From NCBI RefSeq assembly GCF_011682045.1, contig NZ_VVIW01000006.1, positions 1-64,000 on the forward strand: a DNA stretch of 64,000 nt. Reading direction: 5' to 3'. Under the pieces are notes generated by a model, which had not been told where the DNA came from, did no database searches, and saw nothing but the letters and a program-made list of their open reading frames with translations. A program made the translations under genes and the position numbers. This DNA is from Massilia aquatica. GTDB taxonomy: Bacteria; Pseudomonadota; Gammaproteobacteria; Burkholderiales; Burkholderiaceae_D. Shown piece after piece: positions 5,797 to 38,182 of the stretch (position 1 is the first letter of the stretch; each line of letters begins with the position of its first letter).

Positions 5797-8700
5797 TTAC
5801 CGCACGAAGCGGATCTGGCGCAGTTTGTACTGCACGCCCTGCTGGTCTCCCCACTTCGGCAAGGTGCCGAACGGCATACCGATGTTGCGCAGGTCAAAGC
5901 ACGGATCGGCCGCCGCAATCAGGGTGCTGACCTTGACCGAGACCGGCGTCCAGCCACCGGGCGCCGGACGGCCGAAGACATAATCGCCCGACTTGCAATT
6001 GGTGCCCGGGCTTTCCATCTTGACCGCCAGCCCGCCTGTATTGGCGCCATAGCTGGCGACCTTGATCTCGAACTGCAGGGTGCCATTGGCGAAGTTGCTC
6101 AGGTTGACGGGCGTGCCGGTGATCATCACCAGGCCATCGCCACCGTCGGCGGCGAAGTGCATGTCCAGCCCATCGGCGGGCGTGATGGCCGCCTTGACGT
6201 GGCTGCCGTTGGACGAGTAGGTGGTCAGCGCCAGGTCGCCCGTCAGCTTGCCCGCGTCGAGCACGCCGTAGCCTGGTCCCGCCAGGGGCGGCGCGAACAC
6301 CACCGGTTCCGGCACCAGGGCCGCGCAGGTGGCGGCGTCGGCATCCTTGGCCGCACCCGGCACCCAGCGGATATTGGCGAACGAGGCCACGAACGCCTTC
6401 TCGGTATAGACCAGGAACGGCGTATCGACCAGGGTGAAGTCGGCGCCCTTGCCGGCAAAGCAGGACAGCGGCACTTTCACGCTGCGTTTCGTCTCCAGCG
6501 GCAAGCCCTTGAACACACTGGTGGCGTCCACTTCGCCCGCGCACGGGTGCTTGCAGTCGACCCGCATTTTCACCGCCCCGGCCGGCGCCTTGTGCACGAT
6601 GGTGTCGAACACCAGCGCCGCGTCGGCGTTGAGGTAGCTTTCGCGGTCGGCCGTGCTTGCCGCTTGCGCGTAAAACTGGCCGGCGCCGCTCCAGCTGATT
6701 TTCTTGGCGTCCTGCTGGACATTGATCTGGGTGGTCTCGGCTTTGACGTTGGGCAAAGTCGTGACCGCGTTCAGGTCGGCGCCCAGCGGCAGCGACCAGG
6801 CGCTCGGGTCGCCGATGCGGGTCGTGTAGGGCGCCTGGTCGGCCGAGCGGAACACCTCCAGGTCGCTACTGGCCTGGCTGCCGTTGCCGGCGCCCTGGGC
6901 GCAACCGAGGGCCGGCGCCGTCTCATCGAGTTTGGCCAGTGTGCTGTCGTCCGCGTAGCGCATTCCGAAGCCATAGGCAAACAGCGGATCGTAGTTGGCG
7001 TCGCCCTTATTGGCCATCTGGCAGGCCGTTCTGGGCCAGGAAAACGACAGCTTGCCGTGCATGTCCAGGTTGACGTCGCCATTGTCCTTGCGGAACAGCA
7101 CATCGGTGACACCCTTGCCTTCGGTGCCGGGCAGCCAGGCCACCACGAACGCGCTCGAGCGGTTCAGTTCCTTGTTGACCCAGACCGGACGGCCGGTGAC
7201 CAGCACGGTGACCACCGGCACGCCCTTGCCGCTGACGGCGTCGAGCACGGCCAGGTCTTCCGGATAGCGGCGCGCGTGCTCCAGCGTGCCGCTCCTGCCG
7301 ATGTCGCCCACCCCTTCGGCGTACGGGGTTTCGCCGATGACGGCAATGACCGCCTTGAAGTCGGCTGGCTTGACGCCGGCGCCGTTCGGGCTGAACACCA
7401 CATTGGCTTCGCCAGCCACCGATTTGATCGCCGTCAGGATGCTGTCGGCGTTCGGGAAGTCGGCATTGGTGTTGGCCGTGCCCTGCCAGGTGAGCGACCA
7501 GCCGCCGGTCTGGTTCGACAGGCTGTCGGCGCTCTTGCCGACTACCAGGATCTTGTCGCCGCGCTTGAGCGGCAGCACCTTGTTGTCGTTTTTGAGCAGC
7601 ACCAGCGACTTTTGCACCGCTTCGCGCGCCAGGGCCCGATGCTGCAGACGGCTGGCATCGGTGAAAGGGCGTTCGAGCGGCGCCTTGGCCGTCATGATGC
7701 CGGCCCGGAATTTCACGCGCAGGATACGGGTGACGGCGTCGTCAATGCGCGCCAGTGGAATGTCGCCCTTGTTGACCGAGGCGATGGTGTTCTCGATAAA
7801 CTCTTTCCACTTGTCCGGGACCATGATCATGTCGATCCCGGCGTTGATGGCTTGCGCGCAACTGCCGTCGCTGCAACCCGGCACCTGGGCGTGGCCGTTC
7901 CAGTCGCCGATGACAAAGCCGTCGAAGCCCATCTTGGTCTTGAGCACATCGGTCAGCATCTCTTTGCTGCCGTGCATCTTGCCAACCTTGATGTTCAGGC
8001 TCTCATTGTCCCAGCTGTTAAACGAGGCCATCACGGTCTGGGCGCCGGCGCCGAGGGCGTGGTAATACCCCTGGCCGTGGATGTTGATCATGTCGTTGCG
8101 GCTGGCCATGTTGACGCCCTGATCCCGGCCCTGGTCGGTGCCGCCGTCGCCCATGAAGTGCTTGGCCGTGGAGATCACGTTGCCGCCGCCGGCAAAATCG
8201 TTCTGCAAGCCCTTGACCATTTCACGCGCGTATTTGGTGACGATCAGGGGATCTTCGGAATACCCTTCGTAGGTGCGGCCCCAGCGGTCGTCGCGCACCA
8301 CGGCCAGGGTCGGGGCGAAGGTCCAGTCGATCCCGGTGGAGTACACCTGGGCGGCCACGGCCGCGCCGATGCGGCGCATCAGGGCCGGGTCGTTGGCGGC
8401 GCCCAGGCCAATGTTATGCGGGAACATGGTGGCGCCGAACACATTATTGTGGCCGTGCACCGCGTCGGTGCCCCAGATCACCGGGATCCTGACCTTGGCA
8501 TCGGTGGCCATCGACGCTTTCCAGTAGGCGTCGGCCAATTTCAGCCAGTCCGCCGGCGCGGCCAGCTTGTTATTGCCCGGAAAAGAGCCGCCGCCGTTGA
8601 GCACCGAGCCGATGTAGTACTGGCGTACCTGGTCCGGGGTAATGCTCTTGATTTCGGGCTGGGTCATCTGGCCGACTTTTTCGGCCACGCTCATCCCGGC

Positions 8701-19813: not shown

Positions 19814-20028
19814 CGGCGTTGCAGCATTCCCTCCAGCTGAAATTTAGCGCACCTGAAGCGTGCAATTAGGGGGGATTGACGCCCTATTGCAGGGCAAAAC
19901 CAGACTGTCTCATTCTCGCCACAGTTCACTTTGTCATGGATTTGACATACGTGGAAGCTATAATTACGTCCGATTAAGAGCATCCCTGGTTAATCGACCC
20001 TTATCTGTGCAACTTTTTGGAGATTTAT

Positions 20029-35939: not shown

Positions 35940-35973
35940 AGTCTAGAGGCCGATTATGTCCATCTCGTGACAG
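35940..35973 (-). promoter_or_regulatory. Putative PhoB box and -10 for the TonB receptor-phytase operon
   Basis: On the minus strand CTGTCAC-GAGA-TGGACAT (35973-35956) has the Pho-box layout of two heptamers 4 bp apart. The first matches CTGTCAT in 6/7 positions, the second in 4/7. After 10 nt comes TAGACT (35945-35940), the spacing seen at PhoB-activated promoters, which lack a good -35. Confidence 0.55.
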
Positions 35974-36114
35974 GCACAGGGCCAGCAAGGGCGTTACGGC
36001 CTTTTACGGCAGCCGGTGAGCTGAAATGCCCCCCGGTGCCGCCCCACCCCGGTGCCAGGTCTGACATGGGGTGAGCCGATCGGACTGGCGGCGCTGCGCT
36101 GTTTGCACCCCCGC

Positions 36115-36148
36115 CTGTCATCGTCCTGTCACGCGCGCGGGCTAGTAT
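36115..36148 (+). promoter_or_regulatory. Strong PhoB box and -10 upstream of the degenerate GGDEF gene
   Basis: CTGTCAT-CGTC-CTGTCAC (36115-36132) matches 13 of 14 positions of the Pho-box heptamer consensus at the correct 4-bp spacing. Ten nt later comes TAGTAT (36143-36148). This geometry is diagnostic of PhoB-dependent promoters and drives rightward transcription, starting near 36155. Confidence 0.8.
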
Positions 36149-36189
36149 CGGAACGTATCACCCTCATGCAAGGCTTTGGCCTTTCGCCC

Positions 36190-37116
36190 ATGCTCCACTC
36201 ACACCGCACTGCGCTCATCCTGGCCTCGCTGGCCCTTCTCGCCTGCTTTTTCCTGTATGCGTTCGCCGGCGTGCCCAAGCCAGCGGCCGACTGGAAGTGG
36301 ATCGATATCGCCAGCGAGGCGAGCATGGCCCTCATGGCCGGCGTGTGGTTCGTGCTGGTACTGAGCTCGCGCCCGCCGGGGCGCGTGACGGCGCTGCTGG
36401 CCGCCGGCCTGGCCGGCCTGATGCTGGGCGCGGCTGCCGACTGCCTCGACGAATTCTTCAGCGTCCCCAAAGGCCAGCTGTGGAACCACGTGATCGAGAG
36501 CGGCGTGACGCTGGCGGGCATGGCCGCCCTCACCTGCGGCCTGCTCGACTGGCGGCGCGAACAATTCATGATGAGCGAGCACCTGCACAAGCGCGAGCGC
36601 CTGTTCCGCGACCACCGCTCTTTTGACGCGCTCACCCAGGTGGGCGACGCCGACTACCTGCGCGCGCAGCTGCGCATCGAGCACGAACGCGGCACCGGCC
36701 CGGATTGTTCGCTGCTGATGGTCGATATCGACAGCTTCCACCTGATTAACCGCGCCCACGGCCAGCGCGAAGGCGACCGCCTGCTGCAGGCGGTGACGCA
36801 TACCCTGCTGCTCAACCTGCGCCGCACCGACCTGTTGTGCCGCTATGCGGGCGACCGCTTCGCGATCCTGCTGCCGGCCACCGATGGCGATACCGCGCGC
36901 GCGCTGGCCGAGCAGTTGCGGCGCGCCGTGGCGACCCTGCGCCATCACACCCACGCCAGCGGCGAGGCGCTGCAGGTGACGGTGCGCTACGCGGTGCGCC
37001 ATGTGGATATCGAGCCGCGCCAGCTGCTCAAGGAAATCAACCGCGCCCTGGAACGGCGCATGCCGCAACCCGCCCCTGGCGCGGAGGATGCCAACAGTTT
37101 CGCCGCGCCCGCGTGA
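36190..37116 (+). CDS. Membrane protein with degenerate GGDEF domain
   Basis: 308 residues from the ATG at 36190, which leaves a leader of about 35 nt from the predicted PhoB promoter. An in-frame ATG at 36166 is an alternative. Four hydrophobic segments lie in the first ~125 residues (ALILASLALLACFFLYAF, ASMALMAGVWFVLVL, VTALLAAGLAGLML, VTLAGMAALTCGLL). The C-terminal GGDEF fold is recognisable (DALTQVGDADYLRAQL, LLMVDIDSFHLINRAHG), but the signature reads AGDRF (220-224). The I-site RRTD (211-214) is intact at canonical spacing. Cyclase activity is doubtful while c-di-GMP binding remains possible. Its 3' end overlaps the AraC-type gene. Confidence 0.82.
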   Translation: MLHSHRTALILASLALLACFFLYAFAGVPKPAADWKWIDIASEASMALMAGVWFVLVLSSRPPGRVTALLAAGLAGLMLGAAADCLDEFFSVPKGQLWNHVIESGVTLAGMAALTCGLLDWRREQFMMSEHLHKRERLFRDHRSFDALTQVGDADYLRAQLRIEHERGTGPDCSLLMVDIDSFHLINRAHGQREGDRLLQAVTHTLLLNLRRTDLLCRYAGDRFAILLPATDGDTARALAEQLRRAVATLRHHTHASGEALQVTVRYAVRHVDIEPRQLLKEINRALERRMPQPAPGAEDANSFAAPA

Positions 37117-38182
37117 GCCGCTGTTGAGCCGCCTTCTGCAAGCGGGCGACCCCTGCATCGTGGCGCAGCACCAGCCGGCGCTGGTGCTCGACTACGCGCG
37201 TAGCCGCGAACTGGCAGCGCGCGCGATCCTGGCCGGCACCGGCATGGACGACCTGCAGGCGCCCGATGCGCAGCAGGCGATTACCCCCACCGAATATCTG
37301 CAACTGCTGGCCAATGTGGCGGCCGGCCTGAAAAGCCCGGAAACCAGTTTCATGCTGGGCCAGCAAATGCTGCCCGGGCATTTCGGCGCCCTGAGCCACG
37401 CGCTGATGCAGGCCCACAGCCTGCGCGAGGCGATCGCGCTGCTGGTGCGCTTCCAGATGCAGCTGTGCCCTTTGCTGGCGCCGCGCTTTTGCGAAGAAGG
37501 CGCTCTGGCCGTGTTGTACTGGACCGACAGTTTCGGCGCCGGCGCGCAGCGCGGCTTTCTGGTGGAGATGCACATGACCGCCATGACAGCCATGTGCCGC
37601 TGGCTGGGCGGCGAGCGCCTGCCGTGGCGCTACTGCTTCAACCGCACCCCGCCGCGCTACACCGAGCAGCACGAGGTGCACCTGGGCGAGCAGCTGCGTT
37701 TTCACTGTCACCTCGACGCCATGCTGATCGACGCGGCCTGGCTGGACCGCCCCTGGCCGCGCGCCAACGCGATGGCGGCGGCGGTGGCGCGGCGCGCTGT
37801 CGACGCCGCGCATGCCGCAGGCAGCCAGCGCAGCCTGCTGTGCGCCCTCTACGATTATCTGCTGGAGCACATCCGCAACGCCCCCACCCTGGAACAGTGC
37901 GCGATCGAGTTCGGCGTCAGCCCGGCCACCCTGAAACGCCACCTGGCGCGCCACGGCAGCCATTTCCAGGCCGAGCTCGACCAGGTGCGCGCGCACGTCG
38001 CCCTGCACCTGTTCCATGGCGGACGCCACGACAACGATGCGGTGGCGCGCCATCTCGGATTTCATGACGCGAACAATTTCCGAAGATCATTTAAACGTTG
38101 GACCGGCATGACACCCATGCTGTTAAGACAAGGCCTTCAAGCTTATCGCTTGCAATCGGGAGACACATCGGCCATAATCTAA
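37088..38182 (+). CDS. AraC-family transcriptional regulator
   Basis: About 364 residues from the ATG at 37088, overlapping the GGDEF gene by 29 nt. A TTG at 37124 just after that gene's stop is an alternative start. The N-terminal ~190 residues resemble the Arabinose_bd/OruR-type ligand domain (TPTEYLQLLANVAAGLKSPETSFMLGQQM). The C-terminal AraC DNA-binding domain (TLEQCAIEFGVSPATLKRHLARHG..., AVARHLGFHDANNFRRSFKRWTGMTP) is complete. Overlap suggests co-transcription with the PhoB-boxed gene. The hemP promoter lies inside its last codons. The target is unknown. Confidence 0.87.
   Translation: MPTVSPRPREPLLSRLLQAGDPCIVAQHQPALVLDYARSRELAARAILAGTGMDDLQAPDAQQAITPTEYLQLLANVAAGLKSPETSFMLGQQMLPGHFGALSHALMQAHSLREAIALLVRFQMQLCPLLAPRFCEEGALAVLYWTDSFGAGAQRGFLVEMHMTAMTAMCRWLGGERLPWRYCFNRTPPRYTEQHEVHLGEQLRFHCHLDAMLIDAAWLDRPWPRANAMAAAVARRAVDAAHAAGSQRSLLCALYDYLLEHIRNAPTLEQCAIEFGVSPATLKRHLARHGSHFQAELDQVRAHVALHLFHGGRHDNDAVARHLGFHDANNFRRSFKRWTGMTPMLLRQGLQAYRLQSGDTSAII

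Follow-up and report, generated by a model that had tools for sequence, protein, structure and literature searches.

A four-gene phytate module in Massilia aquatica and its relatives appears to be governed by paired two-regulator promoters

In the window, by which we mean the whole 64,000-nt stretch of Massilia aquatica DNA analysed here, two gene units diverge from one intergenic region: a TonB-dependent receptor and a beta-propeller phytase on one strand, and a GGDEF-like membrane protein and an AraC-type regulator on the other (Table 1). These identities had been proposed in an earlier, sequence-only reading of the same DNA, and Pfam and TIGR profiles confirm all four. The receptor gene ends 1 nt before the phytase frame. 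The phytase is a beta-propeller phytase by its PF02333 score, which is over the cut-off, and its enzyme activity is predicted from that match. The Pfam match spans residues 201–526; the N-terminal third (residues 30–200) lies outside it, is matched in part of the relatives (the best stretches run from 28 or 29 to 528), and may represent a second, incomplete propeller.

The GGDEF-like protein is laid out as four hydrophobic segments followed by the GGDEF domain. The regulator matches both PF12625 (94.0 bits) and PF12833 (HTH_18; 56.4 bits) over their cut-offs, an architecture also found at two distant loci, L187 and L188. Judged from the reading frame, its start is likely ATG 37088, so that the two genes would overlap. 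A candidate start for the AraC gene is found 30 nt or less from the GGDEF stop codon in 71 of 78 relatives, as one would see in a single transcript.

Table 1. Genes and intergenic features of the phytate module in the window
Feature	Coordinates	Strand	Remarks
Beta-propeller phytase, 528 aa	31762..33348	-	PF02333, E 1.7e-78, 264.7 bits, cut-off 21
TonB-dependent receptor, 851 aa	33350..35905	-	TIGR01782, 597 bits, cut-off 310; PF00593, PF07715
Leftward -10 hexamer, TAGACT	35940..35945	-	10 nt past Pho box
Leftward Pho box, CTGTCAC-GAGA-TGGACAT	35956..35973	-	Predicted promoter of TonB receptor-phytase unit
Site A, TGAGCTGAAATGCCC	36017..36031	+	1 mismatch; 44 bp from left Pho site
Site B, first copy, TGAGCCGATCGGACT	36072..36086	+	1 mismatch; 44 bp before right Pho site
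Site B, second copy, TGCGCTGTTTGCACC	36095..36109	+	1 mismatch; 21 bp before right Pho site
Rightward Pho box, CTGTCAT-CGTC-CTGTCAC	36115..36132	+	Predicted promoter of GGDEF-AraC unit
Rightward -10 hexamer, TAGTAT	36143..36148	+	10 nt past Pho box
GGDEF-like membrane protein	36166..37116	+	PF00990, E 1.7e-28; family start favours ATG 36190
AraC/XylS-type regulator, open frame	37001..38182	+	PF12625, E 1.6e-26; PF12833, E 3.9e-15

A scan with the GGDEF-like protein found 243 relatives, of which the best 80 were used; these belong mostly to Massilia, Duganella, Janthinobacterium, Pseudoduganella, Rugamonas, and Undibacterium, with a few from farther away (Methylobacillus and Chitinimonas). All four genes stand in the same arrangement at 75 of these 80 loci, in at least eight named genera. 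Among the exceptions, the DNA of L013 and L016 ends close before the gene, L072 has no AraC match and its contig ends soon after, and L065 has the GGDEF and AraC genes with no receptor or phytase in the retrieved DNA. In the fifth, L053 (Janthinobacterium sp. PC23-8), the receptor and phytase were not found and the AraC protein is matched in its C-terminal part only. The four-gene arrangement also occurs in distant families of the class.

Linkage was also followed in draws of whole genomes. Among 116 genomes of the family, that of the window included, the same 15 have both a phytase match at E 1e-70 or better and a member of the GGDEF family, the latter detected by its N-terminal part and thus free of motif bias, where they lie 3.3–4.4 kb apart on opposite strands; a weak sixteenth phytase match (G150, E 1.7e-21) has no GGDEF partner. 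Among 323 genomes of the class, nine have the phytase at E 1e-30, four have the GGDEF family, and three are common to both; in the fourth GGDEF-family genome (G563, locus L188), a divergent phytase and receptor lie beside the GGDEF and AraC genes. In an order-wide draw, 4 of 150 genomes have a member of the GGDEF family.

In promoters activated by PhoB, the Pho box takes the place of the -35 region. The sequence-only reading had proposed divergent promoters of this type over both units; its letters and positions for the two boxes and their TANNNT hexamers, with 10-nt spacers, agree with ours, and the proposal is backed by the genome pattern scan and by conservation in relatives, as set out below. 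According to sections of PMC4415409, the Escherichia coli Pho box consists of two 7-nt repeats with 4 nt between them, its most conserved motif is CTGTCAT, and phytases are listed among the common Pho products. Two CTGTCAY-like 7-nt repeats set 11 nt apart are present on both sides of the intergenic region. One should not lean on the boxes by themselves, since the bare 7-4-7 box (three mismatches or fewer) has 13 matches in the window against 11.2 expected from shuffles; the left box, a three-mismatch match, could be chance if taken singly. The full promoter pattern was defined as TGTCAY-N5-TGTCAY-N10-TANNNT, with the same pattern read backwards as its control.

At two mismatches or fewer, the full pattern marks 45 sites in the 7.47 Mb genome, against four for the backward control. 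Only three sites genome-wide are perfect: one before pstS, one before ppk, which diverges from it, and the one before the GGDEF unit here. The receptor-phytase promoter is among the 45 with two mismatches. The pst region itself holds two divergent promoters (pstS and ppk) with the 7-4-7-10-6 geometry of the window pair, and the -10 hexamer is spaced by 10 nt in the pstS, ppk, GGDEF, and receptor promoters alike. In a profile search of the genome, the pstS candidate lies at C22:56838 (394 bits), and the best PhoB candidate (C22:61337-62002) starts 3.6 kb past it, within the pst region; its 294.4 bits narrowly miss the TIGR02154 cut-off of 296.2, and the next best candidate scores 211.3.

Eighteen genes downstream of Pho-pattern sites, chosen by eye, were scanned with Pfam. 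Ten belong to families concerned with phosphorus (ppk, two GDPD, Ppx/GppA, PhoD, PhoX, two phospholipase-C-type phosphoesterases, a metallophosphoesterase, and a phytase-like protein). For six others, including a porin, a TonB receptor, an acyltransferase, and a periplasmic binding protein, the family shows no plain tie to phosphorus, and the remaining two match no family. Judged by gene content, the set is a Pho regulon, in agreement with the Pho-box description in sections of PMC4415409. Several of the remaining sites sit within long frames and may be chance matches. The two other perfect bare boxes of the genome were judged unconvincing, C88:56522 because it falls within a match to a response regulator and C66:221133 because TANNNT is missing at the 10-nt spacing.

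Conservation was assessed in 76 intergenic regions, that is, those of 75 relatives plus the window, which as cut are 119 to 1206 nt long; L013, L016, L053, and L065 were left out for want of an adjacent receptor, and L045 because its receptor match begins at residue 197. At three mismatches or fewer, the right promoter is found in 73 regions, the left in 74, and both in 71, whereas shuffles match in 1.4% (right) and 0.5% (left) and the backward pattern in 0% and 1.3%. The check that the sequence-only reading had suggested for its proposal, conservation of both boxes across related genomes, is thus positive. The 33 promoter columns average 0.94 bit (right, 43 non-redundant rows) and 0.97 bit (left, 46 rows), against 0.09–0.13 and 0.16–0.35 bit in their flanks; because the rows were anchored on the pattern at three mismatches or fewer, this column conservation is in part a product of the selection, and the comparison with shuffles is the sounder one. 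The right promoter is absent even at four mismatches in L029, L078, and L087, each of which shows one CTGTCAC half-box by eye, and the two Chitinimonas regions have the left promoter at four mismatches only. Taken together with the genome scan, these patterns make PhoB control of both promoters well supported, and we predict with high confidence that PhoB binds the boxes.

The intergenic regions hold a second conserved cis element, TGAGCYGNNNNSACC, which the sequence-only reading had overlooked. At two mismatches or fewer it occurs in 76 of 76 regions. When at most one mismatch is allowed, 150 copies run the same way as the GGDEF gene and 1 runs the opposite way. Two or more such copies are present in 67 of the 76 regions, compared with 0.02 per region in shuffles, a figure that should be taken as a guide since the motif was derived from the same regions. 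The second copy at site B in the window has its counterpart in L008–L012, the other regions with paired B copies.

The spacing of these sites was surveyed in the 71 regions with both promoters at three mismatches or fewer. In 63 of 68 regions, site A is separated from the left Pho site by 33–34, 43–44, 54–55, or 65–66 bp; in the rest the distance is 6 or 15 bp. In 68 of 71 regions, site B precedes the right Pho site by 22–24, 34–37, 43–46, 55–57, or 65–67 bp; in the rest the distance is 39, 49, or 77 bp. Off-phase cases are site A at 6 and 15 bp and site B at 26, 39, and 49 bp. A test for 10.5-bp periodicity over the distinct distances, which followed sight of the pattern, gave p = 0.0016 for site A and 0.0001 for site B. 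Sites A and B are one single copy in 5 of 68 regions. The promoters of this module resemble E. coli-type Pho promoters in their 7-4-7 repeat box, but differ from them in forming a back-to-back pair that serves a phytate module, and in the additional conserved site that lies upstream of each one, in most cases on a constant face of the helix.

The loci that were set aside can be read in the same way. L045 has both promoters at one mismatch and two perfect second elements, and L013 has the right promoter at one mismatch. L016 has one second element at one mismatch and no promoter within the short DNA before its gene, and in L065 there is a three-mismatch Pho promoter match while the second element was not found. 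In Massilia atriviolacea, tandem repeats (L010:5979-6588; a 128-bp unit in 4.8 copies with 99% matches) lie between the left promoter and site B and swell the intergenic region to about 1.2 kb.

Where else the element occurs bears on what reads it. The upstream side was checked for 44 of the 45 Pho-pattern sites of the genome (C88:56506 was left out), and TGAGCYGNNNNSACC was not found within 150 bp upstream of the 42 sites other than those of the module. Perfect copies, sought genome-wide as further AraC targets, are not enriched (10 against 27 for the control); the three copies of the window, having one mismatch each, are not among these 10. Six phytase loci of the class without GGDEF or AraC matches (L189–L194) were also inspected. 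No element precedes the receptor in any of the four in which a receptor was found. L189 and L194 contain one copy each, located beside the phytase and within the receptor gene, respectively, whereas L190 and L191 contain no copy at all. Among three distant loci with the module, L186 has a Pho match (two mismatches) and one element copy, on the GGDEF side only, and L187 has two copies, one of which overlaps the apparent right -10. L188 has all four module genes with no element near the gene starts; its only Pho match (7869-7901, one mismatch) was rejected as a promoter, as it lies inside the GGDEF coding region. Over these loci, the presence of the element thus largely follows that of the GGDEF and AraC genes.

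AraC-type proteins with two HTHs would read a 15-bp asymmetric site made of two boxes a turn apart, and the 15-bp asymmetric element, likewise with two boxes a turn apart, fits such a protein. By association, then, the reader of TGAGCYGNNNNSACC is probably the local AraC-type protein encoded in the same operon. Of the two products of the right-hand unit, this is the one that the element and its phasing suggest to be the more informative. It should be kept in mind that the sites have one absolute orientation, so that A and B face their own promoters differently, which a simple activator model leaves unexplained.

We favour the reading, to which we give a probability of roughly 0.6, that the four-gene phytate module is under two keys, PhoB and the local AraC protein, with the GGDEF-like protein as a partner. 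In phosphate starvation, phosphorylated PhoB would occupy the Pho box that replaces the -35 region of each divergent promoter, and with both boxes occupied both units would fire. The right-hand unit would supply the AraC protein together with its membrane-bound GGDEF-like partner. The AraC protein would bind the TGAGCYGNNNNSACC sites, mostly on one helix face relative to each Pho box, and would aid PhoB and RNA polymerase both at the receptor-phytase promoter and at its own, so that the two regulators would form an AND gate with a feed-forward loop. What the sequence shows is the boxes, the sites with their spacing and conservation, the gene linkage, and the altered active-site residues; binding by PhoB and by the AraC protein, activation, and the role of the GGDEF-like protein are inferred from these. 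Weighing against the reading are the irregular promoters or elements of L029, L078, L087, L065, L186–L188, and the Chitinimonas regions, the off-phase sites, and the single orientation of the element. By such paired two-regulator promoters, soil bacteria appear to switch on the uptake and breakdown of phytate, in which plants store phosphorus.

In this scheme the GGDEF-like protein would be a conserved partner without enzymatic function, which most likely serves as a sensor or an anchor and sets AraC activity. That it acts on the AraC protein is a tentative suggestion to which we give somewhat less than even odds. It is modelled on the PdeR-DgcM-MlrA system of E. coli, in which, according to passages of PMC5052742, a transcription factor is controlled through its direct contacts with GGDEF/EAL-type proteins; MlrA is MerR-like and its partners are active enzymes, whereas here the regulator is AraC-type, the partner looks inactive, and the contact is putative. 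The signal for the second key could be phytate, inositol phosphates, a metal, or c-di-GMP. A more specific version, which we regard as doubtful, holds that evolution has fixed a GGDEF membrane protein devoid of cyclase activity in the role of dedicated sensor-partner of the AraC protein, the whole making an AND gate with PhoB; its outward acidic residues could bind metal or a calcium-phytate complex, it would release or activate the AraC protein by direct contact, and the inputs of the gate would be phosphate starvation and the presence of phytate. Near-invariant acidic residues do exist (D47, E51, D92, D95, E96, and E111), and by the positive-inside rule these should lie near the outward-facing ends of the hydrophobic segments.

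The sequence-only reading had described this protein as a degenerate GGDEF membrane protein and had suggested that phosphate starvation directly ties phytate use to c-di-GMP signalling. The description is sound, for the motif is AGDRF and key active-site residues are changed; the suggested tie is not supported, as the altered motif throughout the family makes synthesis of c-di-GMP very unlikely. The fold is retained (PF00990, 99.8 bits), and 42 distinct PDB sequences, most of them named GGDEF or cyclase proteins, were matched by sequence at E 1e-5. Because CRYAGDRF was among the search peptides for the 81 locus proteins, the universality of the motif in them was set aside as proof. Instead, homologues were found with the N-terminal part alone, in a search with the N-terminal 150 residues that scored the 8000 candidates sharing most words, which gave 112 rows (the window plus 111 homologues). 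Arg replaces the motif Glu in 110 of the 110 rows with letters at that position (two further rows are gapped), and the family variants keep it; the protein thus lacks one of the two acidic motif residues of an active diguanylate cyclase. The Lys of DxxFK, carried by solved relatives, is His in 107 of 112. At the distant locus L188 the motif reads SGQRF and no DxD remains, yet the Arg is retained; this is constraint rather than decay. Given Arg for Glu across the family, the GGDEF-like protein very probably makes no c-di-GMP, and a non-enzymatic role is to be expected with little reservation.

A protein that makes no c-di-GMP may still bind it, at the mostly kept RxxD I-site. One can envisage a receptor akin to PopA, a degenerate GGDEF effector that passages of PMC5052742 describe as a c-di-GMP receptor, which would relay the level of c-di-GMP to the AraC protein or to cell adhesion; phosphate starvation would then be tied to c-di-GMP by reading rather than making it. 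As in PopA-type effectors, the GGDEF fold lacks a working motif and RxxD is mostly kept (Arg in 105 and Asp in 111 of 112 rows, and by eye also in distant L187 and L188), but here the protein is a membrane protein with an N-terminal part of its own and a link to nutrient uptake, and its c-di-GMP binding is putative. We consider this receptor role rather unlikely. Against it, the RxxD Arg is replaced by Ser, His, or Gly in 10 of the 81 locus proteins, some Undibacterium and both Chitinimonas included, at loci with all four genes intact, and where PleD numbering places the second I-site Arg, the most frequent of the listed variants carry His or Gln.

It is also conceivable that PhoB alone drives both units and that the TGAGC element is read by some other regulator, be it a repressor or a global protein. 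The link between the AraC protein and the element is, after all, by association; L188 has the GGDEF and AraC genes without the element; and L053, despite its C-terminal-only AraC match, keeps the GGDEF gene, its Pho promoter at one mismatch, and a perfect site B upstream of 6982, which also counts against the two-key model. A global regulator is made unlikely by the absence of the element upstream of the 42 other Pho-pattern sites and by the lack of enrichment of its perfect matches in the genome; the phytase loci without the GGDEF-AraC pair have no copy before the receptor in the four where a receptor was found; and phasing with both Pho boxes suits a co-activator. On balance we think control by PhoB alone improbable, and prefer two keys.

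Much less credible still is that the GGDEF-like protein makes c-di-GMP or a related nucleotide in phosphate starvation. AGDEF variants are active in other proteins, the fold is kept, and D187, N195, and D204 are found in 110, 107, and 107 of 112 rows, but the Arg and His substitutions described above, and the state of the motif in L188, speak strongly against it. Finally, the view that the boxes are unremarkable and conserved merely through close kinship, for which one might cite the unenriched bare box and the pattern-anchored rows, we regard as already refuted, given that the flanks are little conserved beside the pattern, shuffled and backward patterns almost never match, the regions vary widely in length, and across the genome the pattern points to genes of phosphorus metabolism.

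Soils store a large amount of phosphorus as phytate, and to our knowledge how bacteria decide on its use is not well known. If true, the two-key reading would provide a ready-made two-input switch, with one named input (starvation) and one local, and would give a job to a protein family that our sources name 'diguanylate cyclase'. We propose, from the sequence comparisons, that the larger finding is the conserved two-key promoter pair together with the altered GGDEF-AraC partnership, both tied to phytate use.

Two known systems come close in part. In Pseudomonas fluorescens, as given in sections of PMC3032545, PhoB drives the c-di-GMP phosphodiesterase RapA of the RapA-LapD system via a Pho box, so that there, as is predicted here, phosphate starvation reaches a protein of the c-di-GMP families through a Pho box; RapA, however, is an active phosphodiesterase, whereas the present protein has an altered GGDEF motif, shows no Pfam domain other than GGDEF, and is encoded beside an AraC regulator and a phytase. 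The Caulobacter PhoB regulon, in the portions of PMC11208175 that list it, includes TonB-dependent receptors and a phytase, as is predicted here, but GGDEF and c-di-GMP are absent from the main text of that paper. Among the papers listed from the open-access literature, judged by titles and the openings of abstracts, we recognised no description of a GGDEF-AraC-phytase module or of the second element.

Some other sites of the Pho pattern in this genome deserve mention. Within the window, a Pho promoter with one mismatch (TGTCATGGATTTGACATACGTGGAAGCTATAAT, 19932-19964, forward strand) precedes a Gram-negative porin (PF13609) that runs from 20029 and is perhaps a phosphate-starvation porin. On C35 of this genome (L150:540-2597), a one-mismatch Pho promoter lies before a PF13449 'phytase-like' protein of putative function, and on C10 (L144:389-1144), a two-mismatch Pho site lies before a PF13444 acyltransferase, which we take to resemble the enzymes of ornithine-lipid synthesis.
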